DNA from: Sulfuricurvum sp.
Lineage (GTDB): Bacteria > Campylobacterota > Campylobacteria > Campylobacterales > Sulfurimonadaceae
Length of the DNA: 64,000 nucleotides
Direction: 5' to 3'
NCBI GenBank assembly: GCA_028718525.1
Contig: JAQULP010000004.1
Coordinates: forward strand, 1-64,000
The notes under the pieces are model-generated. The model had not been told where the DNA came from. It saw only the letters and a list, made by a program, of their open reading frames with translations, and ran no database searches. Below, piece by piece: positions 8,567-26,820 of this stretch; the stretch's first letter is position 1; each line of letters opens with the position of its first letter. A program made the translations under genes and the position numbers.

Positions 8567-8696
8567 TTAATTTTTAACCTCTTTCACCTCGAAATAGCTT
8601 AACCTCAGCCCCTCTTCACTCATCACAAATCCGTGAACGGCAATTTTCCCCTCATGCACGAGCCTGTGGTGCTTCGAGCAAAGCGGGATCAGATTG
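8567..8696 (-). pseudogene. 3' fragment A of a mutS7-HNH gene (probably the native, displaced end)
   Basis: Minus-strand reading gives about 42 codons matching the C-terminus of the intact MutS7 protein, including [17 protein letters not shown] and [12 protein letters not shown], then a different tail (FEVKEVKN) and a TAA at 8567-8569. Homology stops abruptly after base 8696, and the next bases belong to a repeat also seen at 10662 and 17965. Bases 8655-8696 are identical to 10509-10550 in fragment B. The gene body upstream is missing, so this is not a working gene. It fits the displaced chromosomal end left when an island enters the 3' end of a gene. Confidence 0.88.
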
Positions 8697-8731
8697 CATC
8701 AAAATCAATATTTAGCAGTGATTTTGGCACT
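8693..8731. repeat. Island-end repeat next to mutS7 fragment A
   Basis: Bases 8693-8709 (ATTGCATCAAAATCAAT) recur exactly at 10662-10678. Bases 8714-8731 (AGCAGTGATTTTGGCACT) recur with one mismatch at 17991-18008. The repeat starts exactly where the mutS7 homology ends, so it marks the left end of the inferred first island. Confidence 0.7.
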
Positions 8732-8807
8732 ACATTTAAACACATATCGCACTATCAGAAGGGGAGAATTTTGGAATGACCCCGTTTTTGTAGACTGAGT
8801 CAAGGTA

Positions 8808-8848
8808 GTTCAAAAACAAGCTAATTTTTGGCGTAGTATTTTTTGAAC
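8808..8848. repeat. Inverted repeat in the gap before the globin gene
   Basis: GTTCAAAAA (8808-8816) is mirrored by TTTTTGAAC (8840-8848) with a 23-base loop. The rest of 8732-8979 shows no open frame I trust. The repeat could be a remnant insertion-sequence end or a weak transcription stop. Confidence 0.35.
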
Positions 8849-8903
8849 CGACTAGCTTTAATAATTACGGACATCCCTGCTATATGCACAGTATGATTAA
8901 ATA

Positions 8904-8917
8904 TTAATCATGATCAT
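8904..8917 (+). promoter_or_regulatory. Possible Crp/Fnr-type box upstream of globin
   Basis: TTAAT-CATG-ATCAT at 8904-8917 matches the TTGAT-N4-ATCAA pattern in most positions and lies 63 bases before the globin start. In Campylobacter the related single-domain globin is controlled by a Crp/Fnr-family nitrosative-stress regulator (NssR). Binding here is only suggested by the half-sites. Confidence 0.35.
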
Positions 8918-8979
8918 AAGTATATTTATAACAATTTAACCTATCATTTTGTACCCAACTAATTTCAAAAGGATATCCT

Positions 8980-9405
8980 ATGTCACTATCACCTTCAACC
9001 ATTACTACGGTTAAAGCTACAGCAGGAGTAGTTGCAACCCATGCGGAAGCCATAACGATGAAAATGTATGAGATCCTCTTTTCAGAATATCCTGAAACCA
9101 AGGATTTTTTCAAAGATGCAGATCCTATGCAACACAAGAAACTTGCAAGTGCAGTCAGCGCCTATGCAGCTAATATCGACAACCTCGAAGTACTGACACA
9201 AGCTGTAGAAAAAATGGCTCAGACCCATGTCAAAAGCAGTGTAAAACCTGAACATTATCCCATCGTAGGAGTTTGTATTTTAAAAGCCATCAAAGAGGTT
9301 CTTGGTGATACTGCAACTGACGAAATACTTGAAGCATGGAAAGAAGCTTACTTTTTTCTTGCCGATATTCTGATTGCACGTGAGAAAGAAATATATGCAG
9401 CATAA
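8980..9405 (+). CDS. Single-domain haemoglobin (Vitreoscilla/Cgb-like globin)
   Basis: 141 residues with an AAAAGGA site six bases before the ATG. The sequence aligns by eye with Vitreoscilla haemoglobin over its whole length. Proximal haem ligand His83 (F8, in AQTHVKSSVKPEHY), Gln51 at E7, Tyr30 at B10 and Phe43/44 at CD1 are all visible, and the C-terminal HYPIVG and AIKEVLGDTATDEILEAW segments are highly typical. Such cytoplasmic globins bind O2 and NO and in Campylobacter protect against nitrosative stress by NO dioxygenation. It is one of the few plus-strand genes here, stands alone, and lies inside the inferred first island between two mutS7 fragments. Function is well supported; the physiological trigger is inferred. 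Confidence 0.95.
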   Translation: MSLSPSTITTVKATAGVVATHAEAITMKMYEILFSEYPETKDFFKDADPMQHKKLASAVSAYAANIDNLEVLTQAVEKMAQTHVKSSVKPEHYPIVGVCILKAIKEVLGDTATDEILEAWKEAYFFLADILIAREKEIYAA

Positions 9406-9468
9406 TTATTTGGTCAGAACGTTGATCTTGTCATGTTAAGACAGATCAGCTACCTGTACTTTAGCGAA

Positions 9469-9506
9469 CTGTTCCAAAATTGACCCCTTTCTGGAACAGG
9501 CTTTTT
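9469..9506 (+). terminator. Rho-independent terminator-like hairpin after globin
   Basis: CTGTTCCA (9469-9476) pairs with TGGAACAG (9492-9499), a perfect 8-bp stem with a 15-base loop, followed by GCTTTTT. It lies 64 bases after the globin stop. The stem also carries TTCCAAAATT, which is inverted at 8767-8776 on the other side of the globin gene. Confidence 0.6.
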
Positions 9507-9649
9507 AACAGTTAATTCGTTTCAAAATCAAGATTTTTTTGAAGTGATAAGATGAAAATGATAGTTGGATGTGAGCTAAAATTAGTATGTTATAGCAGCT
9601 ATCAGCAGAGCTGATTTTTGCTAAATTCAAATGATTTCAGTCGTCAAAG

Positions 9650-9934
9650 TTATTGGCTCACTTCGGTGTTTTTACCATATTGGTATTGTCCGCCAGTACC
9701 ACTGCCATCTTTCAATCTTTGCTGGTCCATAGTGCCTTGAGCATTTCCACTATGTGAATCTTTAGTACCTTTGTATTGGTATTTATTTTGACTTCCTGAA
9801 CCGCTTCCATCTTGAAGTCTTTGTTGCTGCATGGTACTATGACCACCAGAGCCACCACTTCCTCCGCCTCTTGCTAAGAGAGCATTACTGCTTAGAATCA
9901 AAGATGCAATGATTAAAAAACGTAACCCTTTCAT
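9650..9934 (-). CDS. Small Gly-rich secreted protein with an internal repeat
   Basis: 94 residues from the ATG at 9934, which has a GAGGAG site; an upstream in-frame start would add a non-signal leader and is less likely. A clear signal peptide (MKGLRFLIIASLILSSNALL) is followed by a Gly/Ser-rich segment and two copies of a motif: MQQQRLQDGSGSGS then KYQYKG, and MDQQRLKDGSGTGG then QYQYGK. No Cys and no known enzymatic motif. Probably a periplasmic or surface-exposed low-complexity protein; I do not recognise the family. It lies in the inferred first island and reads towards the globin terminator. Confidence 0.75.
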   Translation of the reverse strand: MKGLRFLIIASLILSSNALLARGGGSGGSGGHSTMQQQRLQDGSGSGSQNKYQYKGTKDSHSGNAQGTMDQQRLKDGSGTGGQYQYGKNTEVSQ

Positions 9935-10121
9935 GGGAACTCCTCTGTTTGTTGATAAGAGAATGGTAACATTCAAGTATTAGTGAAGTGTTAGTGAAAG
10001 GTTAAAATTGACTAATTCCTGCTAATTTTTAAAAAGCTAGACTTAATTTTTTTTGTGCAGTGACTACTGCTATCGCATACCTTTGTTCATACCTTGGCCT
10101 TTATTTTGCGATGTTGGGCTC

Positions 10122-10199
10122 AAACCTACAATTGGGTTTTTGTTGCATGCGTTTTAAAATTTGCTTAAAATAATACTGCTTGCTCTAAAACCTACAATT
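10122..10199. repeat. Two copies of a 12-base direct repeat
   Basis: AAACCTACAATT occurs at 10122-10133 and 10188-10199, 66 bases apart, each preceded by a GCTC. The spacing resembles one CRISPR repeat-spacer unit, but there are only two diverged copies and no cas genes. The rest of 9935-10301 contains no open frame or motif I can support. Confidence 0.35.
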
Positions 10200-10306
10200 T
10201 TAAAACCAATCGTCAGCTGATACAAAATGATGAACAATCTCGTGGAGGAAGGATCAAATTTCTGCCCTAAACAACCATCCAAAACTCAACTTTAATCTTC
10301 AAAAAA

Positions 10307-10327
10307 ATGTGAAGTTTTGTGTAGTTA
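10307..10327. repeat. TGTAG-type repeat downstream of mutS7 fragment B
   Basis: ATGTGAAGTTTTGTGTAGTT-like copy (one T shorter than its relatives) lying about 100 bases past the stop of fragment B. The same element lies at 10618-10638 and at 18085-18105, the latter at the equivalent place past the intact mutS7 stop. Paired GTGTAG-type direct repeats resemble arm-type sites of tyrosine integrases; this reading is inference. Confidence 0.55.
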
Positions 10328-10423
10328 CTATTGAAAATGTATTACGAGAAAAATGCTTCAAAATACTCTATTTTGCATTTTTTTGCTGTATAAAAGGTGC
10401 CTACATCTCCCTAAAACAGGGTT

Positions 10424-10558
10424 TTACGAACCACTTGCAGTTTCACTATAGCTGAGCTTCAGTCCCTCTTCACTCATTACAAATCCGTGAACGGCGATTT
10501 TCCCCTCGTGCACGAGCCTGTGGTGCTTCGAGCAAAGCGGGATCAGATTGTAGCGGTG
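10424..10558 (-). pseudogene. 3' fragment B of a mutS7-HNH gene
   Basis: About 44 codons ending in SYSETASGS and a TAA at 10424-10426. They match the C-terminus of the intact MutS7 (which ends SYSETGSDS) and include [19 protein letters not shown]. Homology breaks just after base 10558, inside the HNH-coding part. Unlike fragment A, the match to the intact gene continues about 120 bases past the stop (10302-10423 against 18081-18201). The divergence shows it is a different copy rather than a recent duplicate of the intact gene. It marks the junction between the two inferred islands. Confidence 0.88.
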
Positions 10559-10617
10559 ACATATTCCGTTTTTTAAAGCCCTATTTCACGGTGTTTCAAA
10601 GGGGTGTCTCAAATTTC

Positions 10618-10678
10618 ATGTGAAGTTTTTGTGTAGTTTATATTGCATCAAATTGCTTCAAATTGCATCAAAATCAAT
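10618..10678. repeat. Left copy of island-2 direct repeat with 10-base iterons
   Basis: ATGTGAAGTTTTTGTGTAGT begins at 10618. Bases 10630-10656 are identical, 27 of 27, to 17945-17971 on the far side of the type I restriction operon. Inside lie three 10-base units in tandem, ATTGCATCAA, ATTGCTTCAA and ATTGCATCAA (10642-10671). The gap 10559-10846 has no gene. The arrangement fits the end of a mobile island with helically phased recombinase-binding sites (inference). Confidence 0.75.
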
Positions 10679-10846
10679 TTTTTACACTAAATTAACTATA
10701 TATTTTCAATGTCAAAATGAGAGATTTTTTTGTCTAAAGATAGATAATCAATCAGGAAATTTGACACAATCAACTGATTTGAATGGTTATAAACTTTGAG
10801 GTGTTAGCGAAAAATAATGTGTCTATAAAACGGGGGGGTTCCAATA

Positions 10847-11380
10847 TTATAAAAAGCTTCTTCCCGCAGGTAAAGCTCCTCTAGCATAAGCAGAATTATT
10901 ATTTATTTCAAGTCTCCATAAAAATCGCTCCATCAGCCCTTTTGCATAATATATTTGTAGCTCATCATGCTCTCTATCTATCGAGCCACCGATTCTAGTC
11001 ATCATATTCTTGAAATCTTTTTCTTGATCTTTGTCATCTCTGAAAAGTGCATTATCCATTTTTATAGCTCGTTCACTTTCAGTTAAATCCATAAACTCTG
11101 ATTCTTTATCAAGTACTTCTTCAAAAAGTTCTTTTAATATATCAGATGCATAGATACTGTTTTTTATGTATATCTTCTTGAGTGCTAGAAAGTTATTATA
11201 TGGCTCCTCTGACCCATATCTCATATTTTTCAGATAATAGACATACAACGGACTGTATAGCTTCTCTATACGCTCTTTTAACTCAGCTTTATTACTATTG
11301 CGTACAAAGATATACAAATTAGTCCCAGCAACAAGTATTGCGCCCATGATAGCACCTATTCCGATAGCATTCAAATCCAT
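10847..11380 (-). CDS. Hypothetical membrane-anchored protein at the end of the type I RM operon
   Basis: 177 residues. The N-terminus has one membrane segment (about residues 5-26, IGIGAIMGAILVAGTNLYIF) and the rest is soluble, charged and helical. Its ATG overlaps the last base of the hsdS stop codon, so it is co-translated with the specificity subunit. No domain is recognised. Similar single-span proteins of unknown role sit in many phage-defence and restriction loci, where they may act at the membrane. The extreme C-terminus (SAYARGALPAGRSFL) is compositionally unlike the rest and may come from a read-through after a downstream rearrangement. Confidence 0.65.
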   Translation of the reverse strand: MDLNAIGIGAIMGAILVAGTNLYIFVRNSNKAELKERIEKLYSPLYVYYLKNMRYGSEEPYNNFLALKKIYIKNSIYASDILKELFEEVLDKESEFMDLTESERAIKMDNALFRDDKDQEKDFKNMMTRIGGSIDREHDELQIYYAKGLMERFLWRLEINNNSAYARGALPAGRSFL

Positions 11381-12621
11381 TACAACTCACCCCTAAACGC
11401 TTTATCCAGAATCGAAGCTTTCAAAGCTTTGAGACTATCCATTTTTTCTTTTTGAATCGTTTTCACTTTTTCCATTTTTTCGGATACAGAATCTAAATAA
11501 ACTACAACTTTTTGTTGGATTGGAAGTGGTGGAAATTCGATCTCAACATTTTTAATTTTTGATAAATTAAGGTTCTGTTGACGAACACCTTGACGTTCTT
11601 CTAAAATTTTTGGTTTTAAATATTCTAGTTGATATTTCAAAAAGAATATATTTAATTCATCTTCATTTGGTTTGATTCCAACGATTGCTTGATTACAACT
11701 ACCATCAGTATGCAATATGGACATTTTCATTGCGGCAGTATCATACATACCAATTAGTAACGTACCTTTAGAAAAAAGCTTTGCAGATGAATTTTTAAGA
11801 CCTTCATCTGTAATACGTTCTTTTGCAGGTAAAGTAAATTGTTGATTTAGCTCTCCAGAACTAAACCATTCAATTGTGCCATTTTCCCAATATTCATTTT
11901 TTGTCCGTAAAGGAGTCCCACCAGCAGACATTTTTTGATCAAATTTTTCTAGTTTTTCTTTTTTGTGTTGACCGTCCAACTCCCCAAAAACTTCATTCAA
12001 AACACTTCCCATAAAAGCATCCGCTTCATCCATATTTTTTTGATGAAGTTCGATTGATTTATCGATTTTGGTAAAGAGTAAATCGAGTTTTGAAACAATT
12101 CGTTGTTGTTCAGATAGTGGTGGGACTGGTATTTCTATTTTTTTTGTTTTTGTCAAACTAATAAATCTTAACGCAGAACCCATTGTTAAATCTACAAATT
12201 GATTTAAAAAAGGTTCTGAATAAAAATAGTAGTATAGATATTTCGGTTTTAATAAATCATTTGTTTTAAGTTTAGTCAACTGAGGAGATATGTTAGAGAT
12301 TTTAAAATATTCGTCTTCTATTATAGATGAAATATTAGAAAAATCATTTTTTACACCTCTGTTCACTAAAATTACATCACCAACAGTAGTTTGAGCTTTT
12401 GTCAAAATTGAATGTTTTTCATTTGATATATATTTAATTTTTTCATATTCAATTTTACCATTCACTCCAATTGCGGCAGCAGTTAAAAATGGAATACCAC
12501 TATCAATAAATTCATCTTTTGTTGGGTAGCTTTCACCATAGTTACCATCTATGATTTTATCAGTACATTCATCTAATTTTTTCCACTGCCACCCATTCGG
12601 AAGATCATACAACTCACTCAT
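11380..12621 (-). CDS. hsdS: Type I restriction-modification specificity subunit HsdS
   Basis: 413 residues with the usual two-fold layout. Target recognition domain 1 (about 1-150, LPNGWQWKKLDECTDKIIDG) is followed by a conserved spacer helix (PVPPLSEQQRIVSKLDLLFT). Target recognition domain 2 (about 215-365) and a second spacer helix (FPPLPIQQKVVVYLD) complete it. HsdS chooses the bipartite DNA target for the HsdM2S methyltransferase and the HsdR2M2S nuclease. The start overlaps the 3' end of the preceding 213-residue gene by 8 bases. The two recognition domains differ in sequence, so the target should be asymmetric; it cannot be read from here. Confidence 0.93.
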   Translation of the reverse strand: MSELYDLPNGWQWKKLDECTDKIIDGNYGESYPTKDEFIDSGIPFLTAAAIGVNGKIEYEKIKYISNEKHSILTKAQTTVGDVILVNRGVKNDFSNISSIIEDEYFKISNISPQLTKLKTNDLLKPKYLYYYFYSEPFLNQFVDLTMGSALRFISLTKTKKIEIPVPPLSEQQRIVSKLDLLFTKIDKSIELHQKNMDEADAFMGSVLNEVFGELDGQHKKEKLEKFDQKMSAGGTPLRTKNEYWENGTIEWFSSGELNQQFTLPAKERITDEGLKNSSAKLFSKGTLLIGMYDTAAMKMSILHTDGSCNQAIVGIKPNEDELNIFFLKYQLEYLKPKILEERQGVRQQNLNLSKIKNVEIEFPPLPIQQKVVVYLDSVSEKMEKVKTIQKEKMDSLKALKASILDKAFRGEL

Positions 12622-13240
12622 TATCGAATCCTAATTTCCAAAAATACATATCTACTAATTTCATTTTAGGAAATTTACTTTCAAATTTTTCAAATTCATT
12701 GATATTATCGATATAAAATTTATTTAACTGCAACAAACCTTTTTTAGAAAATTTTTTCTCTATTTCTTGTCTTGGATTTTCTCTATTGTGCAGAGCTATG
12801 CCATTAACAAAAAATCTATCATAAGCAGGTACACTTCCTAATGTACCTAATAATATTTTAGTAATTAATGTATCTGTTGAATTATTATTACCTTTTGAAT
12901 TTTTATGAGCATTTGCATAGTAATGCTTAATAATTTGCTCTTTAATTTCATTTATAACACTAAAATCATATATGTCATTTACACTATATTTTTTAATAAC
13001 TTTCACAACTTCAATATGAATCGTATAATCATTTTGAAGTAAAAAGGTGGAGCCTCTATACATACCCCAGCTTGCCAAGTAAAATCCTAAATGTAATGCA
13101 GCAGTATCATCATCACTTTCATCTTTAAAATAAGTATTTTGAAAATATTGATAACAAGTTTTCCAAGAATTAAATCTATGAAATTCTTGTTCTTCTAAAT
13201 CAATAAATGATTGCAATGTGTTTTTAATATCATTATTCAT
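12614..13240 (-). CDS. Hypothetical protein between hsdM and hsdS
   Basis: 208 residues from the ATG at 13240 (MNNDIKNTLQSF), which overlaps the end of hsdM and has GGAAAAA eight bases upstream. I do not recognise a named family. Conspicuous segments are LHLGFYLASWGMYRGSTFLL and LGTLGSVPAYDRFF, which look like a conserved globular core rather than random filler. It has no signal peptide or membrane segment. Its overlaps with both hsdM and hsdS show it is part of the restriction operon. Possible roles are a subunit, inhibitor or effector; none can be chosen from the sequence. Confidence 0.75.
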   Translation of the reverse strand: MNNDIKNTLQSFIDLEEQEFHRFNSWKTCYQYFQNTYFKDESDDDTAALHLGFYLASWGMYRGSTFLLQNDYTIHIEVVKVIKKYSVNDIYDFSVINEIKEQIIKHYYANAHKNSKGNNNSTDTLITKILLGTLGSVPAYDRFFVNGIALHNRENPRQEIEKKFSKKGLLQLNKFYIDNINEFEKFESKFPKMKLVDMYFWKLGFDNE

Positions 13241-14720
13241 TGATATTTTTTCCAATCAATATCGCTTCGATTTCATTCATTAAATCAGTAATCTCTTCAT
13301 TGTTAAGTTTGATATTTTCGACCAGTTCGATGGGTGATTTATGCTCGATTGTTTCATTTCGATTGGGATTTTTTGCCGATATATCAAAATCTTTGATATC
13401 GTTGACATTCACTATCCAACTGTTCTCTGTAATGGTTCTCTCTTTCCATACGGACAAAAATTCTGAGAAGTGATCGTAGGTGATAGGTTTGTTCTTGGTG
13501 AGTTTCGAGGTTGGATTGACCTCGTAATAAAATATGTCCGATGTCGATCCGTTTCTATCGAAAAATATAACATTCGTTTTAACACCGCTATACGGTAAAA
13601 ATACACCACTCGGCAAACTCAGTATCGTATGGACATTAAAACGCTCCAGTAGCTCTTGTTTAACCGCTTGGAACGCATTATTGGTTTGAAACAATACTCC
13701 CTCTGGGATTACCACCCCACATCGTCCATTTACTTTTAGACTGTTCATCATGTGTTGAAGAAAAAGTAGCTCAGTCGCATTGGATTTGATAGGGAAATTT
13801 TGTTGTATTTGCTCTTTTTCTTTTCCGCCAAACGGTGGGTTAGCTAGGATGATGTCATATCGATCTTTTTCCTCTAGCCCTCGGATATCTTTGGTCAGTG
13901 TATTGGTTTTAGAGATGTTTGGTGATTCGATACCGTGCAGGATCATATTCATTACACCCATGACATAGGACAATGGTGTTTTCTCATTTCCGAAAAATGT
14001 ATCTTCGCTCAAAAACTTGAACTGATCGACGGATATGTCTCGTTGTTTATTCTCTTTTGCATCAATGTATCGAATATGGTTGTACGCTTCGATCAGGAAT
14101 CCACAACTTCCGACAGCTGGATCATAGATCGTCTGCCCGACTTGTGGATTAACCACATCGGTCATAACTTTGATAAGGGGACGAGGAGTATAAAATTCCC
14201 CACTGTTTCCACCATCACTTCCCATATCTTTGAGCAGTTTTTCATAAATGATTGAGAGTTGAAATAGATCAGATTGGTTATGGAAGTCCATTTCATCGAT
14301 AATATCCAATATCTCTCTGATCGTATGCCCATTTGCGATACGATTATCTAAATATTCGAATATTGCACCGATTTTATATTTGATCGATTTAGGGTCTTCA
14401 GTAATATTTTTGAATCCCTTAAGATACGGAAATAGCTCTTTATTTACGAAGTCCAATAGATCAGCTCCGCTTTTGGCATTGATGAGATCGATTTTCCCAT
14501 TGACCTTTGGAACTGCCCAATTGCTCCATTTGAACTTATCATCTAAAATATAGTTGTAGTCTTTACCGATCAGTAATGCTTCATCTGCTTTTGAATCTTC
14601 GAGATCATTGAGAAATTTTAAAAAAAGTATCCAACTGATTTGCTCTGTATAGTGCATCGCACCACTTATACCATCATCACGTCTTAGGATGTCGGTTATT
14701 CGATTAATTTTTAATTCCAA
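13233..14720 (-). CDS. hsdM: Type I restriction-modification methyltransferase HsdM
   Basis: 495 residues. The helical N-terminal HsdM domain (about 1-130) is followed by the N6-adenine methyltransferase core with the SAM-binding motif I (YDPAVGSCGFLIEAY) and catalytic motif IV NPPF (in ILANPPFGGKEKE). It modifies adenine in the sequence chosen by HsdS and forms the core of the restriction complex. The gene overlaps the HEPN-motif gene by 17 bases at its start and the 213-residue gene at its end. Length is normal for the family. Confidence 0.96.
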   Translation of the reverse strand: MELKINRITDILRRDDGISGAMHYTEQISWILFLKFLNDLEDSKADEALLIGKDYNYILDDKFKWSNWAVPKVNGKIDLINAKSGADLLDFVNKELFPYLKGFKNITEDPKSIKYKIGAIFEYLDNRIANGHTIREILDIIDEMDFHNQSDLFQLSIIYEKLLKDMGSDGGNSGEFYTPRPLIKVMTDVVNPQVGQTIYDPAVGSCGFLIEAYNHIRYIDAKENKQRDISVDQFKFLSEDTFFGNEKTPLSYVMGVMNMILHGIESPNISKTNTLTKDIRGLEEKDRYDIILANPPFGGKEKEQIQQNFPIKSNATELLFLQHMMNSLKVNGRCGVVIPEGVLFQTNNAFQAVKQELLERFNVHTILSLPSGVFLPYSGVKTNVIFFDRNGSTSDIFYYEVNPTSKLTKNKPITYDHFSEFLSVWKERTITENSWIVNVNDIKDFDISAKNPNRNETIEHKSPIELVENIKLNNEEITDLMNEIEAILIGKNINE

Positions 14721-15486
14721 TTATATTGCCTCTTTTTTCATATAAGTTTTTTTCTGAATATGCTTTTTGTATTTTATCTCCCCAACCAAATTCCAAAGAT
14801 CTCCACATATCGAAATTTAATTCATTTAATACAACTATGATTTTTTTAAATTCTTTTAAAATCAAATATAAAATTTTTGTATCATCATTTATCCTACAAA
14901 TTAAATCATTTCCATTTTCATGAATAATTTTCAGAATTTCACCATATGAATTTATAGAACTATATTCATCTTTTTTAAATTTAAGAAATGTGTTTCCATG
15001 TCCAAGTTTATTCCTTAATTTTTTCATACAAAGAACATATTCATAATTACAAACATTTTTCATATCAATATCTGTAATTAAAGCAATGTAATCTATTGCT
15101 CTTTCAATATCTGAATAAATTGCTTTTAATCCAAAATCAGGAGGAATCTTACAGCCATATTTTTCTCTTACTTCAAAAGAAAAATTAACCATTGCTTTTT
15201 CAAAAATAGTATATATTTTAATAATCAGTGATTCATTGATTGTTGATGATATGTACTTCACATCTTCAAAGTTGTCTGAAAACATTGTTTTGAATTCTTC
15301 CAAAGTTAAGTTGTAATGATTTTTTTCATATTCTACGACCAAATCACCTTCAATCTTTTCATATAATTCATGCAATGATTCGTCTAAGTTTTTTGATATT
15401 AAATCAATTGCATCTTTGATATAGGCGTATTCTTTTCTTGTGTAGTAAAAAACAAACTCTCCACTTTTAAAATCTTCATCAATCAT
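14704..15486 (-). CDS. HEPN-motif protein embedded in the type I RM operon
   Basis: 260 residues, AT-rich and all-helical in appearance. Around residue 157 lies RNKLGHG, which fits the R-x4-6-H catalytic motif of HEPN ribonucleases (RN...H form), in a predicted helix after a long helical N-terminus. HEPN domains act as RNases or scaffolds in defence systems; PrrC and RloC anticodon nucleases are known examples linked to type I restriction. No ATPase domain is fused here, unlike PrrC. The ATG overlaps the hsdR stop (TAATG) and the end overlaps hsdM, so it is made in step with the complex. HEPN membership rests on one motif and context. Confidence 0.6.
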   Translation of the reverse strand: MIDEDFKSGEFVFYYTRKEYAYIKDAIDLISKNLDESLHELYEKIEGDLVVEYEKNHYNLTLEEFKTMFSDNFEDVKYISSTINESLIIKIYTIFEKAMVNFSFEVREKYGCKIPPDFGLKAIYSDIERAIDYIALITDIDMKNVCNYEYVLCMKKLRNKLGHGNTFLKFKKDEYSSINSYGEILKIIHENGNDLICRINDDTKILYLILKEFKKIIVVLNELNFDMWRSLEFGWGDKIQKAYSEKNLYEKRGNIIGIKN

Positions 15487-17816: not shown

Positions 17817-17842
17817 TATCGATTCCACCGCTTAGCTGTAAG

Positions 17843-18084: not shown

Positions 18085-18105
18085 ATGTGAAGTTTTTGTG
18101 TAGTT
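18085..18105. repeat. TGTAG-type repeat downstream of intact mutS7
   Basis: ATGTGAAGTTTTTGTGTAGT lies about 100 bases past the mutS7 stop. It repeats 10618-10638 exactly and 10307-10327 with one base less. It is the third member of the family and sits at the same distance from a mutS7 3' end as the copy behind fragment B. Confidence 0.65.
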
Positions 18106-18201
18106 AACTTGAAAGAGTATTACACAAAAATTATGAAAAAACTGTTTTAAAATTCTCTATTTTACTACGCAAAATATTGATAAAACACCCTAAAATAGAG
18201 C

Positions 18202-21135
18202 TTATGAATCACTCCCCGTTTCGCTATAGCTGAGTTTCAGCCCCTCTTCACTCATAACAAACCCGTGGATGGCGATTTTCCCCTCATGGACGAGCCTGTG
18301 GTGCTTCGAACAAAGCGGGATCAAGTTGTAGCGGTGATTCACACCGAAATGCCCTACTCCGCCCCCATCATCGGCATTCGCCTGCGGAACGATATGGTGC
18401 ACTTCATCGACCGCTTCATCGCATAAGGCACATTTGGTCAAAAAGAGCTTCGTGTTATAGCGGCTCTTTTTCTCCCGCTTCAGCATCGAGGCTTCGTGGG
18501 TTTTGTCGGTAATCCGCCCCCGTATCTCGTACGCCTTTTTCAAAAAGGTCTCATCCATATGGAGCGATTTGGCAAACTCCAGTCCGTACAGCGTCGAGCC
18601 GCTGCCGCTTTTGAGCTTGCGGTCATACACAAGCTTGTCGCTTGCCTCGTCGTAATAGACCCCCAGATGGAGCAGCACGATCTCGCGCGCTTTTTGGATT
18701 TCACTCAAGCTTGAAAGCTGATGAAGGTGCGTTGCAAAAATAAACATACTGCCGATCTCACGGAGTTTGAGTATCGCACTCGCCACAATCGCCAGCGCCG
18801 ATTCGGTCTCGGTTCCGTGGCTGATCTCATCCCCTAAAATGAGAGTATTCTCCGTCGCTCGGTTGAAGATGTTGCGCAGCTCCAGCATCTCGACCGCAAA
18901 CGTCGAGAGCCCCTTGTAGAGGTTGTCTTTGGAGACGATACGGGTGAGGAGTTTGTCCACCGGAGAAAAACGCATCATCGCACACGGGACGAAAAATCCC
19001 CCCTGCGCCATCACGACGGAGAGCCCGATACTCTTCATCAACGACGACTTCCCGCTGGAGTTGATCCCATAGAGCAACACCCCTTTGACATCTTCATCGC
19101 TCTCGATCGTCGGGTGTTCCTTATAGGTATGGTGCTCGACCGAACCTAAAAAAAGGTCGTTCGGGACAAAAATACCGTTCTCTTCACGCGATTCGATCAA
19201 CGGATGACGCAGCCCCACCGTTTCGATAAACGCTTTAGGGGCGGGGACCATCGTCGGTCTGACGTAGCGGTACTGTTTGGCACATTTGGCACCGCTGAGA
19301 CTGACGTCCACCACCGCGAGAAACGAGATCAGATGCTCGATCGCATGGGAAAACCGCTTCTCAATCTCTTCAAGCTGTTCTCGGTAGCGCTCTTTGACCT
19401 GTGCGATCATCCGCGATTTGGCTCCGGCATTTTCGATCGAGAGTTCATCGAGGAAGCTCGAGGAGAGTTTCACCGCCGTTTTGAGTTTGCGTACCTGAAA
19501 ATCGCGGAAAAAGTAGTGCTGACCGTCCAGCGTAAAAAAGCTGTTATGGAGCGCCTCTTCGACACTCACATAGCGGTTGCGGGTCATCAGCAGATGATAC
19601 CCCTCGCTCTCCAGCCATCCGATAGAGGCGTAGGACCCCCCCGATTCGAAAAAGGTATCGATGTGTCTGATGATCGCGTCCAGTTTCGAGACGTTATGGT
19701 TCTGAAGCTGCTCCAGCGCATCGATAGAGGGGTCGATCCCCTCGTTAAAGAGGTTTTCGTCTACCTGATCGCGCCGGAATTTGGCGCACGCTTCAATATT
19801 GAAGATCCGCCGAAGTTCGGAAGCGCATTGGGTACATTCCCGTGCGCTCGACTTGTCATAGACAATTTTAAGCCTATCCGCATCGCTAAACAAACTTTCC
19901 GCCGCACTCAAAGAGGCGTAGAAATAGGCGAGTTCGAAGGGGTGCAGTTTTCCGAGTTTGAGACGGCGCAAAATCCGCTCCAGATCGTACACCTCTTTGA
20001 GTTTCGTCTCCAACGGTGCGATATGCTCGCCCATTTTGTCGATCAGATCATACCGCTCTTCGAGAAGCTTCGGATCGCAGATGGGATTGAGAAGCCGCTC
20101 GCGCAGCAGCCGTTTCCCCATCGCCGTAGAGGTTTTATCGATCAGTTTGAGGAGCGTCATCTCATCGGCATCGCGCGAAATGATCCCCAGCTGTTCCGCC
20201 GCATTGTTCCCAAGATACATGTACCGGTTGGTTCCCAAGAACGTCGGACGGTTCATCTTCTCGATGATGGCGGGATCGTGGTCGATGATGACGTTGATGA
20301 GGATACAGAGCGATTCGGAGGCATAGGGGTAGCGTTCCAGATCGAGGTACTCAATCGGGCTGAGGAGAGAGCGGATCTGATAAATCCGCTCGAACAGTTC
20401 GTTTTGGTAATCGATGCGCAGACGCTTTTCGTTTTGGGAGGTGCGGTGATGGTTTTTGATCTCCAGATAGCGGTTCACTTCATCCCGGTCGATATCCCCC
20501 GCACAAAACGTCACCACCACTTCGGAAGTCTGGTAGCTTTGAAGCAGCGTAAACACTTCATCCAGCGCATAGGTCTTGTCTTCGCGGGTTCCGTGGATTT
20601 CGTTGATGAGGGTTTTGCCCGTCCCCACATCGATCGCGGAGTATCCGATGGAGTAGACGCCGTTGTTCTGATCGATCAGCAATGAGGCGATGTAGTTTTC
20701 GCTCGCTTCGGCGATGTAGTCGAAATTGGTCCCCGGAGAGATGATGTTGGAAATGTATCGGCGGATATGGGGAACTTCACCCTGCTGACGGACAAGGACG
20801 ATCGTGTATTTTTTCGACTGCACCAGACGCGAGAGATAGCGTTCGATCGAGACGGTCGGAACCCCGGCGAGGAGAGGGTTTTGGATCGAGTTTTCGAGTA
20901 TCGTTTTGTTTTTGCGGGTGAGCTGGATGTTGAGGAATTCGGCGACTTCTTTCGCTCGTCCGACATTTAAATTTTCATTATTTACCTGATACACTTCGAA
21001 GAATGACCCTACTTCGATGAGAACAACGGTATCAGGTCCATACTTTTTTTCACATTCTATTTGAAGTTCAAAATAGATTTCGGAAAGGAGCTTCTTTTTG
21101 TCATTTAGTATAGCCCCTAATTCTTCCGTATTCAT
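18202..21135 (-). CDS. mutS7: MutS7-type mismatch-repair ATPase with C-terminal HNH nuclease
   Basis: 977 residues from the ATG at 21135 with GGAG upstream; an ATG at 21159 is less likely because fragment D also starts at MNTEE. The N-terminal mismatch-binding domain keeps the Phe-x-Glu wedge (EVGSFFEVY, Phe45-Phe46-Glu47). A connector and clamp region spans about 290-640. The ATPase has Walker [10 protein letters not shown] near residue 690 and Walker [17 protein letters not shown] near 765. An HNH domain follows at about 895-955 ([17 protein letters not shown], then [10 protein letters not shown]). This fusion defines MutS7, known from octocoral mitochondria, giant viruses and Epsilonproteobacteria, and proposed to recognise mismatches and nick DNA by itself. 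The first 55 or so codons are AT-rich (about 34% G+C by hand count) while the rest is GC-rich, which indicates a recombinant 5' end. Confidence 0.93.
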
Positions 21136-21178
21136 CGAATCTCCACACCATTTTTTCATTCCAAAAGTTATAAAATTT

Positions 21179-21184: not shown

Positions 21185-21292
21185 CTAAAAGGAGTCTATA
21201 TTACAGGTTAGAAACTAAGCAAGGCAATTTTCTTTCCCGAATTTCATAAAGTTTATATGTGCATTGGATCGGAAAATAGAAACTCAGCATAT

Positions 21293-21347
21293 AAAAACTA
21301 TTGCTGAATTTCATATCAAAAAAAAAATTATGTAGCTTTTTATGTAG
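21293..21347. repeat. Left copy of island-3 flanking repeat
   Basis: AAAAACTATTGCTGAATTTC (21293-21312) and TATGTAGCTTTTTATGTAG (21329-21347) both recur exactly, in the same order and orientation, at 26458-26477 and 26495-26513. A further shared TGCCTATTTT(G/A)GG lies 70 bases on. The second block is two TATGTAG units separated by CTTTT. The gap 21136-21596 has no believable gene. Confidence 0.8.
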
Positions 21348-21596
21348 CTCGATCCGAATTTTTGCCTTTTTTGCAGTTTTTTGCTTATATTTATCATAAT
21401 TATTATTCATAATAATGCCTATTTTGGTCATTTTTTTAGTAAATAATAATTTCTTATAGATTTAGTAGCAAAGAATGAATCAATTTTATAATATTAAATT
21501 AATCTAATAAATTTATTTTTTTATGTAGTTCAATAATTTTTTTAGCTTATCTACTTAGGAAATTCAGTAACTTAAATTTTGCAATTCTATTGTTTA

Positions 21597-22583
21597 TCAT
21601 ATTAGTCCCAATTCTTCAGAGATGTCTTTTATAAGTTTTGAAAGGGGACGTTTATTGATCTCATCGTCAGTAATGTAACCGCATGTAATTAAGCGCATTA
21701 AATCCTCACGGTTTTTGAAAAGTCTTCCTTCGTAATTGTGCATTAGTTCCTCAATATAACTGTCATTATAGATTTCGGCTTTTTGAATTAATTCTAAAAC
21801 TATGTCTTTGTGTTCGCCATAAAGTTCATTTAATCTAAAAGTCTTAATAGTATTCTTCGTTTCATTATCTTTATCATTAATAGGTTTCAAAGCTAAACTA
21901 ATCCGCTTTGTTGAAAAGAGAGGATACTGCTTATTAGCATGAGTAGGACTATTAAAGGAATGGGTAAATTTTGCTTTTTTATTGAAATCATCTTCATAAG
22001 GGTGCAAGTGAGGAATATTATAAAAATTTGCCTGTGCTTTAAACTTACTGTTGCAAATACTACAAGATGGAATTAGGTTATAAAAAGACAATGCCAAAAA
22101 GGGATAATTTTTTTGACTATAAAAATGATCAAGATGAGCTACAGTTCTTAATTCCGACTTTGTTTTATCATAGAATTTAAAAATATACTCCCTATTGCAA
22201 TAAGGGCAACTAATTAATTTTAAATTTTTTGCAAAATCTACTTTATCAATTTTCGTATCATAATCAAAAATTTTAATTAAAGCATTTATAAATTCATTTT
22301 CATGAATTTGTTGTGGCAAAAGATTTATATTCTTTGGTTTTTTATGTTTTACAAGTTGAATATTAAACGTTAAAATCTCTTTTATATGCTCTCTCAATCT
22401 TATAGGTTTGTCAGCAATAATACTTTCGATATTTTTTTCTATATAAGAAATTGCTGAAACATACGATTGATTAGTTTGATATAAAGTAGTGTTTTTTATC
22501 GCACTGAAATCCAAACTATTTTTAAGATTTGCATAATATTTTTGCACCAATTCATTCACGTTGGAAACAGTGATCTTAATCAT
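21597..22583 (-). CDS. HNH endonuclease, PtuB-like, of the four-gene cassette
   Basis: 328 residues. A zinc-type HNH core lies mid-protein: SCPYCNREYIF at about 122-132, HLDHFYSQKNYPFLALSFYN at about 146, then LIPSCSICNSKF at about 167-178. The two CxxC pairs would bind zinc, and DHF plus Asn supply the nuclease residues. Helical regions flank it. The ATG overlaps the stop of the ATPase gene (ATGA). An AAA15 ATPase followed by an HNH protein is the arrangement of Septu (PtuA/PtuB) anti-phage systems, where the HNH subunit is the effector. Assignment to Septu is by arrangement and domain type only. Confidence 0.8.
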   Translation of the reverse strand: MIKITVSNVNELVQKYYANLKNSLDFSAIKNTTLYQTNQSYVSAISYIEKNIESIIADKPIRLREHIKEILTFNIQLVKHKKPKNINLLPQQIHENEFINALIKIFDYDTKIDKVDFAKNLKLISCPYCNREYIFKFYDKTKSELRTVAHLDHFYSQKNYPFLALSFYNLIPSCSICNSKFKAQANFYNIPHLHPYEDDFNKKAKFTHSFNSPTHANKQYPLFSTKRISLALKPINDKDNETKNTIKTFRLNELYGEHKDIVLELIQKAEIYNDSYIEELMHNYEGRLFKNREDLMRLITCGYITDDEINKRPLSKLIKDISEELGLI

Positions 22584-24187
22584 AAGCGTTTACTCAATAA
22601 ATCAATTCGATGTTTCAAAAACTCAATTTCTTCTTTCGTATCTTTAGCTAAATAATCTATTTTATTTCTATCTAACATCCGTTGGAGTTGCTTTTTTAAT
22701 ATAGGTTCACCAATGATAGAAATAATATTTTCACAAAATTCCATCTCTTTATCTGTAAGTGTTTTTCCATTAAGAAGAGTGATGGCATCGTTTATTTTCT
22801 TATTTGCAAACTCTCCCATTAAACCTTCTTTCATGAAAAAACCGTGGGAAAGAAGAGTGTGAATATTTGCTCCGAAGGTATCAATATCCGGATAAACTTG
22901 TTTTCCATCTTTGAGAAAAATGATATTTTCTTTAGATAGATCAGAGAGAATAAATGGAGAATGAGTTGTTATGATTGTATGTATTGTTAAATTTGACATC
23001 GTATCGTTATAAAAATCAATAAGTCTTTTTAAAAATTCTCTTTGCCAACGAGGATGCCAATAGACAATTACTTCATCCAATAAAACTAATAGGAAATTGT
23101 ATTTAACTGTACTTTTATGGTAGAAAATGATTGCAAATAACTTTAAAAAGTCTTGTTCTCCTTTGCTTAGGTCTTTCAACCAAATTTTTTTATTTTGATC
23201 TTTTCTCAAAAATTTGAAATAAATCAAATCATACATTTCTATTTTAAAGATCTTATCAAGATACTCATAACTCGAATTGTTGATAGCGGTATATACATTC
23301 ATTTCCTTTTTCTGACTAATATTGTATAAATTATTCAACAATGTGATTATCTCAGGCAGATCTTTATTGTATTCATTTACAATTTCTTTGATTTCTTCAA
23401 TAAAATTTTCTACATAATTGTTTCGCACTACGATTATATCGATTAGCAATCGAATATAAGCTCCATCTTCCTGAATATGATCCACTATCTCATCTTGGTC
23501 TTGATTGTATGATGTTTCGTATAAGTTATTTTTCATGTCATATTTACTAATTTTTGAAATAGTTTGTATGAAATATTTACAATATGCATAATCAGTAAAA
23601 TTACCAGTTGAAACTAGATTTTGGAAAGCACGTTCAATCGTTTCACTAAATAAAGTTTCTATGGAAGTAATATCTTCTTGAGAAAACTCATTATAAGGAA
23701 GCTCCGAAAACGAATAATTCGCATTTAAAAAGTTCAAATGATACAAACCATCGATACTATACTTATTAGACAAATTCCAATAAACTGTATTTGGTAAAAA
23801 TGAATGTAAAAAGAAATTACTTTTTTTAGCCTCATTAGCAAAATACAATATTTCAAAATCATATGAATTTTGATTAAATTCATTTGGTTCAATCAAAACT
23901 TTATTAATATCTTTATCATCAATCATTTTACCTGTTAAATCAACGAAAAAAGTATGCTTTTGTTCATAAAGTTTATGTAAAATAGCACTTTTTCCACTTC
24001 CATTTTCACCTACAATTGCAGTGACATTAATATTCTTAGGAAAAATATGAATGTAATCTTTTTTTTCATTGAGAGTAAGTTTTTTTAGCTTAGGATCATA
24101 ATCATTACATCGATATCGTCCGCTAAAGTTAAAACCATCTTCTTTAATATTTTTGTAATTTTTTACCCATAAATATACTAATTCCAT
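22580..24187 (-). CDS. AAA15/OLD-like ATPase, PtuA-like, of the four-gene cassette
   Basis: 535 residues. Walker A is GENGSGKSAIL near residue 60, preceded by the short beta-hairpin start (MELVYLWVKNYKNI) usual for SMC-like defence ATPases. After a long variable helical insert come the signature LSKGEQDFLKLF (about 330), Walker B LLVLLDEVIVYWHP (about 365) and the D-loop His region IITTHSPFILSDL (about 405). The C-terminus is a short coiled-coil. Such ATPases sense invasion and license a partner nuclease. It is directly coupled to the HNH gene downstream and lies 29 bases after the HEPN-motif gene. G+C is low, as in the rest of this cassette. Confidence 0.85.
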   Translation of the reverse strand: MELVYLWVKNYKNIKEDGFNFSGRYRCNDYDPKLKKLTLNEKKDYIHIFPKNINVTAIVGENGSGKSAILHKLYEQKHTFFVDLTGKMIDDKDINKVLIEPNEFNQNSYDFEILYFANEAKKSNFFLHSFLPNTVYWNLSNKYSIDGLYHLNFLNANYSFSELPYNEFSQEDITSIETLFSETIERAFQNLVSTGNFTDYAYCKYFIQTISKISKYDMKNNLYETSYNQDQDEIVDHIQEDGAYIRLLIDIIVVRNNYVENFIEEIKEIVNEYNKDLPEIITLLNNLYNISQKKEMNVYTAINNSSYEYLDKIFKIEMYDLIYFKFLRKDQNKKIWLKDLSKGEQDFLKLFAIIFYHKSTVKYNFLLVLLDEVIVYWHPRWQREFLKRLIDFYNDTMSNLTIHTIITTHSPFILSDLSKENIIFLKDGKQVYPDIDTFGANIHTLLSHGFFMKEGLMGEFANKKINDAITLLNGKTLTDKEMEFCENIISIIGEPILKKQLQRMLDRNKIDYLAKDTKEEIEFLKHRIDLLSKRL

Positions 24188-24216
24188 ATACCCTCACTAA
24201 TAAAATTTTTCTATAT

Positions 24217-24798
24217 TCATTTTATACTCTCAACTTGAGAATCTAAAACTTGTTTCATCATAATGACTGCAAATTTGACACCTTCTTTTTCGGACAAAAT
24301 ATTACTGAGATAGATTTTTTCATTTTCTAAATAATTTGCTGGAAAATTGATAGCGAGATATGTCATTAATTTCTTATCATTTTCCCAAAATCTATATTTT
24401 ACTTTACCTGACGATTGATACTTGATCAAAAAATTATGAATAGACTCTGTTTTACCTTTCCAGTTAATAAGTTCCATGTCGAACCATATATCATCCCAAC
24501 TATCAAAAAATGGAAAATGTAAAATCAAATTTCTAATAAATTTAAATAATTTACTTGCGATTTCTGATTCCATTGGAGGTCGTTTTTCTTTTATTTCTTT
24601 TATTACCCATGCAATTGGTTCATAGTTTAACAGCTCTACATAAACAGCAAAAACTTCTTTAATTTTTGAAAATCTATATTTAGGTTCATACATCCAAAAT
24701 TCATTATTAAAAATCTCTTCTTGTATATCATAAAATCTATTATAGGCAAGGTTTAAAAACTTCAGTTCTTGCGAGTTTGGTTTTACATTTGCACTCAT
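24217..24798 (-). CDS. HEPN-motif-containing hypothetical protein of the four-gene cassette
   Basis: 193 residues, helical, unrecognised as a named family. Near residue 88 lies FIRNLILHFPFFDSWDDIWF: the RNLILH segment fits the R-x4-H catalytic pattern of HEPN ribonucleases and the WDDIW that follows is a conspicuous acidic-aromatic patch. It lies 43 bases after the PD-(D/E)XK gene and 29 bases before the ATPase gene, all in one direction. It could be a toxin-like RNase held in check by the others, or a non-catalytic scaffold. The HEPN call is from one motif. Confidence 0.55.
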   Translation of the reverse strand: MSANVKPNSQELKFLNLAYNRFYDIQEEIFNNEFWMYEPKYRFSKIKEVFAVYVELLNYEPIAWVIKEIKEKRPPMESEIASKLFKFIRNLILHFPFFDSWDDIWFDMELINWKGKTESIHNFLIKYQSSGKVKYRFWENDKKLMTYLAINFPANYLENEKIYLSNILSEKEGVKFAVIMMKQVLDSQVESIK

Positions 24799-24841
24799 AT
24801 GATGATTCCCATTAAACCATTATAAACATCGAAATTACTCA

Positions 24842-26281
24842 TTACATAATCAATAGATCAAATTTTCGTTGAAAAAACTTGAACATCATATTTTTATAAT
24901 CCATTGATTGACGAATCCGTATCAATTCTTCAAAATCTTTATCTTCAAGAATAAGAATAAATCCTCTATCGTCTTTTGCCGTATCTTTACATCTTTTCAA
25001 AGCAAGTTCTTTATCAACAATATTTCTACAAACAAGTAATCCAAATCTTCCTCTGCTTGGTGAAAATCTACCTGACAATTGATCAAATTCTGGATTTTTT
25101 AATTCCAATGAATAGTTTTTACATTCAATAAAAACATGAGAAGCAGGATAGTTAAGTGCAAGCCAATAGAAAAACCCTTCTTGAGCAATATTTGTATATT
25201 TTATATCTATTCTTTTACGTCCATCGTGAATTTTATGCTGTAATTCAGGATACATCAAATCTGGGTAAAAAATTATCGATATTAATTGTTCAATTATTTT
25301 TTCATAAGTATCTGCATCTTTCTTACCTGTTGGTATTGCTTTTAATTGATCAAATAATTTTTCAAGATTCGGCATTGAATTATTTTCTATAATTGCTAAC
25401 TCATTATGATCCAAGGGCGCCGATATATCATTTGATTTATCTTCTCTATATTTATCTAAAATGCTTGGATGGTTAAGTGTTTCTCTAATCGAAACTTCTT
25501 TTTTTTCTTTTCCGTATTTGCTTTCTAAATTTTTATTAGTGATACGGCGTTTACCATTTTTTAGCATTTCAATTAATCCACTATTTGCTCGAAATTCTTG
25601 GCTTCTTAAAAAATCTAACACATAGTGATTATAGTATTCATCAATATCGTAATTTGTTTTTTTTCGAATTATTGCTTTAGGAATTAAGAGTAAAGTCCCT
25701 TGATCTGTTTTCGGTAAACTAACTAATTCGTGTTCCCATCTAGAATGCTCTGGATTCCATATAGGGCCAGATGCAACACCACTTTCCAGTGGAATAGAAT
25801 ACAGCTCTGCCATTTTCTGGGTATATATAATTAATTCACTTCGTATAATATTAGTCGTAATATCAGAGATAATGTCATATCGAACTCCTCTGATTAACAA
25901 TGCCGTTTCTTCTAAATTTTGTAATAATCCAGTTTTAACTGCTTCACTATCTTTTAAAGAGTCCAATACTTCTGAAGCCAAATAAGGACCAAGACCTCTA
26001 CCTTGAGATTTTTCTTTTGAAACCCCTAAATGTGTTTCATTCGGTTCTTTTAATTCTAAAAGTATTCTACGCGCACTGGATATGTCTCCATTGCGAATAA
26101 ATTGAATTAATGTATCAAAAAAGTTTCGAATATAGTATTTACATCGATCTGAAAATTCTGATGAAATCATTTCAAATGCATACGGGTCAATATAAAGCTT
26201 AATATCATTATAAATATCTACATCAAGAAAATCCAAAGATGCCTGTGAACGCCCGAGTTTGTAATATTCTGAAACTCTCAT
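24842..26281 (-). CDS. PD-(D/E)XK nuclease-like protein of the four-gene cassette
   Basis: 479 residues. The C-terminal part carries a restriction-endonuclease-like core: HDGRKRIDIKYTN (catalytic Asp about 357) and, some 28 residues later, HVFIECKNYS (Glu-Cys-Lys about 383-385). A typical following helix contains GLLVCRN. The N-terminal 300 residues do not match anything I know; GRSQASLDFLDVDIYNDIKL near the start suggests a conserved sensor or assembly domain. First gene of the operon, with GGA six bases before the ATG. Family-level function as a nuclease is reasonable; its substrate and role beside a second nuclease (HNH) are unknown. Confidence 0.7.
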   Translation of the reverse strand: MRVSEYYKLGRSQASLDFLDVDIYNDIKLYIDPYAFEMISSEFSDRCKYYIRNFFDTLIQFIRNGDISSARRILLELKEPNETHLGVSKEKSQGRGLGPYLASEVLDSLKDSEAVKTGLLQNLEETALLIRGVRYDIISDITTNIIRSELIIYTQKMAELYSIPLESGVASGPIWNPEHSRWEHELVSLPKTDQGTLLLIPKAIIRKKTNYDIDEYYNHYVLDFLRSQEFRANSGLIEMLKNGKRRITNKNLESKYGKEKKEVSIRETLNHPSILDKYREDKSNDISAPLDHNELAIIENNSMPNLEKLFDQLKAIPTGKKDADTYEKIIEQLISIIFYPDLMYPELQHKIHDGRKRIDIKYTNIAQEGFFYWLALNYPASHVFIECKNYSLELKNPEFDQLSGRFSPSRGRFGLLVCRNIVDKELALKRCKDTAKDDRGFILILEDKDFEELIRIRQSMDYKNMMFKFFQRKFDLLIM

Positions 26282-26307
26282 ATATATCCATTATGATTAA
26301 ATGTTAT

Positions 26308-26336
26308 ATTATATATAATCAAGTTAATAAAAGCAA
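26308..26336 (-). promoter_or_regulatory. Promoter of the four-gene defence-like cassette
   Basis: Minus-strand TTGCTT (26331-26336), a 17-base spacer and a perfect TATAAT (26308-26313), 27 bases before the first ATG. A good sigma-70 match in an AT-rich setting. Confidence 0.55.
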
Positions 26337-26457
26337 ATTATTATATAAATACTAATTCCAATCTAGTAATTTTGTAAAGAGAATGATCTCATTCTAATTA
26401 TTGAAACAAAACATCTTAAAAGATGCCTTGCCTAATTTCTTACTGGATTACCTAGCA

Positions 26458-26513
26458 AAAAACTATTGCTGAATTTCTAATGTGTGGTACGACTTATGTA
26501 GCTTTTTATGTAG
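26458..26513. repeat. Right copy of island-3 flanking repeat
   Basis: Exact repeat of the 20-base and 19-base blocks at 21293-21347, in direct orientation, with a 17-base spacer of different sequence. A third TATGTAGTTT follows at about 26530. It lies about 125 bases from the point where the mutS7 5' fragment breaks. The gap 26282-26639 holds this repeat and the promoter and no gene. Confidence 0.8.
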
Positions 26514-26639
26514 TTGTTAATGAGATTCTATGTAGTTTAATGCACCTTGCAGAATTTGTTAGATTCTTCAAAAGTGCCTATTTTAGGGCTTTTTACGATA
26601 TTCAGGAAGCCAAATTATGAAGTATGCAATTATCCTTGG

Positions 26640-26820
26640 CCTTACCGATCTTCATCTCTTCGTTGTTGACCTCATAAACCTCGAAAAAAGAGCCCACTTC
26701 GATGATGACGAGGGTATCGGGGCCGTATTTGGCCTCACATGCTGCTTGGAGTTCAAAATAGATTTCGGAGAGGAGCTTTTTTTTGTCGTTTAATATTTCT
26801 CCGATTTCTTCCGTATTCAT
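26640..26820 (-). pseudogene. 5' fragment D of a mutS7 gene (displaced native start)
   Basis: From an ATG at 26820 with GGAGA upstream, about 60 codons match the start of the intact MutS7: [20 protein letters not shown], then [16 protein letters not shown] and GKAK. After GKAKD homology stops and a stop codon soon follows. The DNA is about 43% G+C by hand count, like the body of the intact gene and unlike the AT-rich start of the intact gene. The mismatch-binding Phe-Phe-Glu is retained, but there is no clamp, ATPase or HNH domain. It still carries an upstream TATAAT. It sits against the core gene serA, so it is probably the original chromosomal start of mutS7. Confidence 0.88.

Follow-up and report, generated by a model that had tools for sequence, protein, structure and literature searches.

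Several described island families offer parallels for the islands analysed here, which lie in and around the gene mutS7 within the first 64,000 nt (hereafter the window) of contig JAQULP010000004.1 (C4) of a Sulfuricurvum draft genome (GCA_028718525.1, here G000; 83% complete, 31 contigs). Islands associated with dusA have short semiconserved attachment (att) repeats and varied cargo, as here, and supply a new 5′ end while displacing the old one, but carry a dusA-specific integrase beside that 5′ end, whereas the window islands lack any integrase and make use of both gene ends (PMC4482086). The target being mutS7 and the integrase being absent, the window islands are not of the dusA type and resemble it in mechanism only. 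SpyCI of Streptococcus pyogenes is likewise a site-specific island, at the 5′ end of mutL, and one member has a deleted int; it is, however, phage-like and blocks mutL reversibly, while mutS7 stays whole in most genomes (PMC3430984). The cis-mobilizable elements (CIMEs) keep attL and attR after losing their integration genes and stack in tandem at one gene end, but no transfer genes or parental integrative and conjugative element were seen here, no search for a relative with transfer genes having been made (PMC5704250). GInts are also islands at gene ends, altering a C-terminus or re-driving a 5′ end, yet they carry ginABCD, with three putative integrases, none of which is found in the mutS7 islands (PMC5385486). 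Finally, the neighbourhood of mutS is a hotspot of islands and prophages in Enterobacteriaceae and Pseudomonas, but those islands insert between genes, whereas the cores in mutS7 lie within coding sequence and the gene ends are exchanged (PMC7232297, PMC2647930); moreover, mutS7 belongs to a different MutS lineage.

The first-pass annotation, made from the window alone, had regarded the use of both ends of a mismatch-repair gene whose product carries a nuclease as unusual; for end replacement and for a mismatch-repair gene as target, the dusA islands and SpyCI in mutL are precedents. What is new is the target gene, the use of both ends and other points of one gene, the exchange of the parts coding for the mismatch-reading head and nuclease tail, and islands without integrase; searches of a literature collection on mutS as an island target, Sulfuricurvum islands and MutS7-HNH gave no report of a mutS7 site among the matches listed. 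The reading given a probability of roughly 85% is that short fixed cores in mutS7 serve as insertion points for integrative elements whose attachment sites are of the tyrosine-recombinase type; it rests on comparison of sequences across the genus.

The intact gene of the window encodes MutS domains I, III and V plus a C-terminal HNH domain, and thus belongs to MutS7, defined as MutS with HNH in PMC3166940. Read in gene direction, serA is followed by a displaced 5′ end of mutS7 (D), an island of ~5 kb, the intact gene, a restriction island of ~7.5 kb, a displaced 3′ end (B), a globin module of ~1.7 kb, a further displaced 3′ end (A) and a secretion-type operon. All four mutS7 pieces were found on the minus strand by the list of open reading frames (ORFs), by alignment and by tblastn; the intact gene, two 3′ fragments and one 5′ fragment on one strand, as well as the order of the modules, were thus located as first described. 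The tblastn E-values of D, B and A (6e-28, 9e-22 and 7e-16, respectively) argue that these matches are not due to chance. D is 77% identical to the intact head over 201 nt (78% in amino acids across codons 1-63), B is 88% identical to the 3′ end of the intact gene, and A is 76% identical to B. No tRNA or tmRNA was found in the window.

The genus set comprised 41 genomes, all of them searched, of which 40 have some MutS match and 34 have an orthologue, whole or partial. Displaced 3′ ends were found in six genomes (two in G000, and one each in G001, G016, G020, G028 and G034), and six of the seven start at the 8-bp core CGCTACAA, with a single-base difference in G016 and in G020. This core corresponds to codons 935-937, Arg-Tyr-Asn, inside the HNH motif. 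Displaced 5′ ends occur in four genomes (G000, G028, G038 and G029), every one stopping at codons 63-64, ~17 codons past the Phe-x-Glu residues 45-47, which have a role in mismatch reading. The Asn of codons 935-937 is taken as the centre of the HNH motif described in PMC3166940. Thus, as in tyrosine-recombinase genomic islands, a fixed core is common to independent insertions, and different islands occupy the same mutS7 codons. The repeated site-specific insertion proposed in the first-pass annotation is supported by these coinciding breakpoints, and neither plain tandem duplication nor unrelated breakpoints were seen for the 3′ core or codon 64. Site-specific integration at mutS7 is well supported for the 3′ core and fairly well for codon 64, as judged from these comparisons; the proposal of two insertion ends holds for these two sites, but further interruptions lie at codons about 46, 83 and 400, in a single genome each. 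The codon-64 stop in G029 was counted although its 5′ piece lies at a contig end and lacks part of the head. The 3′ site also looks filled in G013 and G022, but both genomes were left out of the count because their contigs end before the far side. A 5′ ‘fragment' in G016 was rejected as a displaced end, being a frameshift.

In unoccupied genomes, mutS7 is directly followed by one of a few neighbour genes. When 330 nt from the core onward were aligned with unoccupied loci, the displaced 3′ side matched native downstream DNA across 312-335 nt in all five genomes outside the window (G001, 81.7% over 312 nt to G037; G016, 93.6% to G032; G028, 85.4% to G038; G020 and G034, 77.3% and 80.3%, respectively, both to G030). 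The intact-gene side of G001, G016, G028 and G034 matched just 107-141 nt, about the length of the coding tail (G020, which lacks an intact gene, was left out). Because only the displaced side continues into native DNA, this indicates that the displaced end is native in these five genomes, and that the 3′ end of the intact gene arrived with the island. The empty sites expected of a tyrosine-recombinase genomic island, which the first-pass annotation had suggested looking for, are thus present in relatives, and the joined flanks stay in frame (980 codons in G001 and 976 in G028).

In the window itself, the intact end and B match native downstream DNA over 119-121 nt at best. As neither continues into native DNA, B is an island-borne rather than a native end, marking a second island stacked on the first; it ends in ETASGS and a stop, followed by a CCCTGTTTTAGGG repeat and an arm site one base shorter. 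A is truncated: it begins a few bases within the core, its flank apparently having been lost between two copies of CAAT with a join across this microhomology; the secretion-type operon after A is not the neighbour gene of unoccupied relatives. At the 5′ site, the head of the intact gene has the lowest similarity among the 28 compared (median 72.0%, best 78.3%), the identity of D is typical (median 81.75%, best 88.9%; 28 genomes), and so is that of the mutS7 body (79.0 and 86.0%); the intact head looks foreign and D looks native. The claim that an island brings a replacement end and displaces the native one stands for the displaced 3′ ends outside the window and fits the 5′ site of the window, but not B or the 5′ head of G028, which does not look foreign.

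Matched direct-repeat arms were found at both ends of six islands. The arm AACTACACAAAAACTTCACAT has six sites without mismatch, two each in G000, G001 and G028, at both ends of their hsd (type I restriction) islands; at up to two mismatches it was found nowhere else in the 41 genomes (none in the other 38), and the reversed control motif gave no match. CTACATAAAAAGCTACATAA has two exact sites in G000, at both ends of the 5′ island, and only two other matches in the 41 genomes, with two mismatches each (reversed control, one match); one lies beside an integrase of the G038 type in G019 and the other ~1 kb or less from an integrase domain in G020. A pair peculiar to G034, TACGTAAAAAATTACGTAA and TACGTAAAAAACTACGTAA, is split between two contigs; in G038, GTGTATAAAAAGGTGTATAA lies beside the displaced 5′ end and a variant differing by one base marks the opposite end, the two sites again being on different contigs. 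Therefore, the arms agree within islands and differ between them. Comparison of the hsd islands of G000, G001 and G028 with one another gave 86-92% identity for the 140 nt that follow the stop, 79-89% for the far ends and 80-82% for the coding tails, whereas four-fold sites are 51-60% identical in hsdR and hsdM and 61-74% in hsdS; a small ORF common to G000 and G001 has 90% four-fold identity over 29 sites. That the non-coding ends are more conserved than synonymous sites suggests selection on the island ends, and hence possible action in trans.

The search with PF00589 gave six matches in G000, on C2, C5, C12 and C24, and none on C4, so that no integrase is in the window, as originally noted. 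The integrase gene expected within a tyrosine-recombinase genomic island is present at the same 5′ core in G038, where a 419-aa PF00589 protein (E 6e-7) adjoins the displaced 5′ end, with an arm just upstream; this codon-64 island holds the integrase plus type III restriction genes. The matches listed for the genus-wide PF00589 search do not cover all weak integrases of the other genomes. Among 25 distinct integrases related to that of G038, an upstream repeat was found in 10 by an exact 8-of-8 test and in two more by eye, and in the G019 element with a G038-type integrase the arms lie 9.5 kb apart in direct orientation. The recombinase probably belongs to the family of the G038 integrase, since arm repeats of the same kind precede int in members of that family. 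The link of the window islands to this family is reasonable at the 5′ site and unproven at the 3′ site, where no integrase is tied to the arm motif because the motif is absent elsewhere in the 41 genomes. The 5′ and hsd islands of G000 have paired arms and no integrase, an absence that may reflect either loss or never having had one; they are therefore either CIME-like remnants, stuck today, or moved in trans.

In the proposed mechanism, a circular element would bear its own copy of the gene end, so that after crossover mutS7 would be complete on one flank of the island, with the native end on the opposite flank. One insertion core lies in codons 61-64, shortly past the Phe-x-Glu motif, and the other at codons 935-937, holding the central Asn codon of the HNH motif; the window would have received at least two tandem insertions on the 3′ side and one on the 5′ side.

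A number of observations weigh against this mechanism. No arm repeat was found at the tested ends of G016 and G020 or at the visible ends of G013 and G022, and a generic arm pattern was not enriched (30 matches in the loci versus 40 in the shuffle), so that the pattern alone proves nothing and the case rests on the matched pairs. No integrase (PF00589) was found near mutS7 in seven genomes checked, in four of which contigs end inside the locus, and 13 of the 25 related integrases have no such upstream repeat. In several genomes, tail identity by itself failed to tell native ends from foreign ones, hence the use of the downstream-continuation test, and the 5′ site of G028 has an arm on one side only, none being found next to the intact gene, and an intact head that looks native. 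Furthermore, no circular form was seen, and the plasmid, phage and IMG/VR collections gave no free form.

Some of these points could fit homologous recombination, in which DNA would be exchanged frequently around the gene, as it is around mutS in enteric bacteria, islands hitchhiked with mutS7 alleles via transformation and the repeated ends are traces of crossover. Islands beside mutS are known in enterics and pseudomonads (PMC7232297, PMC2647930); repeats of the gene ends could guide later homologous exchange; the secretion operon is 3′ of mutS7 in G000 versus 5′ in G001; and some island ends have no arms. Such exchange, however, predicts neither one 8-bp core in six genomes and a codon-64 stop in four nor matched arms inside the islands, and is considered improbable. 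A tandem mutS7 duplication that later decayed, accessory genes having come in afterwards by chance, would account for homologous pieces in one orientation, but native neighbours join the displaced 3′ ends rather than the intact ones, breakpoints coincide between species, and intact and displaced ends differ by 12-24%, which makes it very improbable. An assembly artefact, for which the draft state of G000 might speak, is hardly credible, as G001 (100% complete, 5 contigs) shows the same structure in the interior of a contig of 2.57 Mb, and G028 in one of 374 kb. Insertion of integrative elements at fixed cores is thus the reading preferred here.

Table 1. Coordinates of mutS7 pieces, arm sites and island genes in the window
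Feature	Position	Strand	Remarks
serA, native 5′ neighbour of mutS7	26966..28555	-	Order rpsA-duf-serA-mutS7 same in unoccupied relatives
D, displaced, apparently native mutS7 5′ end, codons 1-63	26632..26820	-	Breaks off at the codon found in G028, G038, G029; head identity typical of relatives
5′-site core at D, GCCAAGGA, codons 61-64	26632..26641	-	
Arm CTACATAAAAAGCTACATAA, far end of 5′ island	26494..26513	-	Exact; one of only two in genome
479-aa protein, 5′ island	24842..26281	-	PADLOC PDC-M36A, E 3e-49
193-aa protein, 5′ island	24217..24798	-	No family match
AAA ATPase, 5′ island	22580..24187	-	PDC-M62A (Septu PtuA-like), E 1e-98
PDC-M62B protein, 5′ island	21597..22583	-	Weak PtuB/HNH similarity; E 7e-79
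Arm CTACATAAAAAGCTACATAA, 5′ island end adjoining intact gene	21328..21347	-	
Intact mutS7-HNH, 977 aa	18202..21135	-	ORF open to 21159; Pfam MutS_I, III, V, HNH_2
5′ end of intact mutS7, codons 1-63, putatively island-borne	20947..21135	-	Lowest head identity among 28 genomes
5′-site core within intact mutS7, GCGAAAGAAGTCGCC	20941..20955	-	
3′-site core within intact mutS7, CGCTACAA, codons 935-937	18326..18333	-	
3′ end of intact mutS7, taken as island-borne	18202..18333	-	ETGSDS, then CTCTATTTTAGGG repeat; similar ends in G001, G028
Arm AACTACACAAAAACTTCACAT, hsd island, gene side	18085..18105	-	
Restriction island	10847..17828	-	Type I R, M, S by PADLOC; related islands in G001, G028
hsdR (15486-17828), 260-aa ORF, hsdM (13233-14720), 213-aa ORF, hsdS (11380-12621), 177-aa ORF		-	
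Arm AACTACACAAAAACTTCACAT, hsd island, far side	10618..10638	-	
B, displaced 3′ end, island-type	10424..10559	-	Core at 10548-10555
Arm-like site AACTACACAAAACTTCACAT, after B	10307..10326	-	One base shorter
Globin gene between B and A	8980..9405	+	Globin, E 8e-17
A, displaced, truncated 3′ end	8570..8705	-	

PADLOC and Pfam tests were run on chosen island proteins. PADLOC matches were obtained for 6 of 10 proteins of the window islands (type I R, M and S; PDC-M62A, M62B and M36A), for 7 of 9 from the islands of relatives (Tmn, type III M and R, PtuA, PtuB, a PD-T4-6-like kinase and, weakly, HipA) and, at E <1e-5, for 3 of 7 (one weak) from the insertions at codons 46 and 400 (G025 and G023), while none of 10 control proteins, accessory genes between serA and mutS7 without a displaced end that were chosen and not random, gave a match. 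Thus, mutS7 is a recurring docking site for bacterial immunity genes. The suggested role of both gene ends as an anchor for defence islands agrees with the many defence genes among the island proteins tested, but not with the globin module, an exception not known as defence cargo. The ORFs at 12614-13255, 14704-15486 and 24217-24798, which adjoin restriction or defence genes, gave no Pfam or PADLOC match. Elsewhere in the genus, the 5′ segment of G028 has a PemK-like toxin gene; in G016 (L043, 17371-17472) a short hsdR remnant precedes a Septu pair (PtuA and PtuB), which seems to be a restriction island with its cargo replaced; and in G020 (L040) type I restriction genes accompany a displaced 3′ end, but the genome, although 99% complete, yielded no intact mutS7.

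Across 135 genomes of the second large genus in the family, presumably Sulfurimonas, no displaced end was found at the 3′ core; the mutS7 C-terminus is present in 111 of them and a second copy only in G122 and G137, beginning at codons 883 and 877, respectively. Among the best 80 of 280 relatives in a GTDB survey, five loci were flagged as short, three of them Sulfuricurvum fragments from the genus set, and clear displaced ends were limited to Sulfuricurvum; of the rest, L163 was rejected as a frameshift, and L173 holds the remains of a mutS7, internally deleted next to the same HRYN codons, with no recognisable island. The mutS7 C-terminus had no match in plasmid and phage collections, both gene ends gave 31 and 45 pattern matches in IMG/VR with no relative among them, and the G023 MutS7 gave none there. 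Full MutS7 matched 48 plasmid records, all <60% identical, those annotated among the 20 listed being ordinary mutS, and G001 mutS7 DNA had no plasmid match. As clear displaced ends were found nowhere else searched, and a free form in none of these collections, the dock appears, as far as seen, to be a trait of one genus.

For Campylobacterota, the locus represents a mapped docking site of defence islands whose versions within a single genus range from unoccupied through singly to multiply occupied, which allows direct study of how islands insert, stack and exchange cargo; paired arm sites provide a DNA search key for such islands even where no integrase gene is present. It also links the traffic of islands with two parts of the repair protein MutS7, its head and its nuclease tail; relatives of this protein occur in giant viruses and octocoral mitochondria. 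A further-reaching idea, rated unlikely, is that MutS7-HNH would be a multi-port dock for mostly integrase-less defence islands kept mobile in trans, whose traffic reshapes the gene by exchanging its mismatch-reading head and nuclease tail, sometimes substituting a few residues for the head (G038) or bringing a whole second MutS7 (G023); if true, transport on islands could explain the arrival of MutS7 in distant hosts, for instance octocoral mitochondria and giant viruses.

The G038 island (start of L045, and L046 from 11024) leaves mutS7 without its first 63 codons, in place of which the open frame offers a start with eight other residues. G023 has an intact mutS7 plus pieces of another, one interrupted at codons about 398-403 (L051, G023:C30, 1-8390) by an insert whose right end bears an arm repeat, with GTGTATAAAAAAGTGTATAA and a AAATAGGG repeat. 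Within this insert lies a full MutS7-HNH gene (993 aa), which has 47% identity to that of the window and 50-52% to the best matches among the loci compared; the genome has 5% contamination, so that a second strain may be involved. A ~30 kb insertion was also observed at mutS7 codon 83 in G023 (L049-L050, G023:C15). In G025 (L047, G025:C63, ~8900-10300), the 5′ end stops at codon 46 and adjoins a 365-aa PF00589 integrase of a different type, followed by a helicase, a methyltransferase and other genes. The operon after A in the window (3853-8428) reads like type I secretion from its ORFs; it lies 3′ of mutS7 here and between serA and mutS7 in G001 (L038), the module having changed sides.

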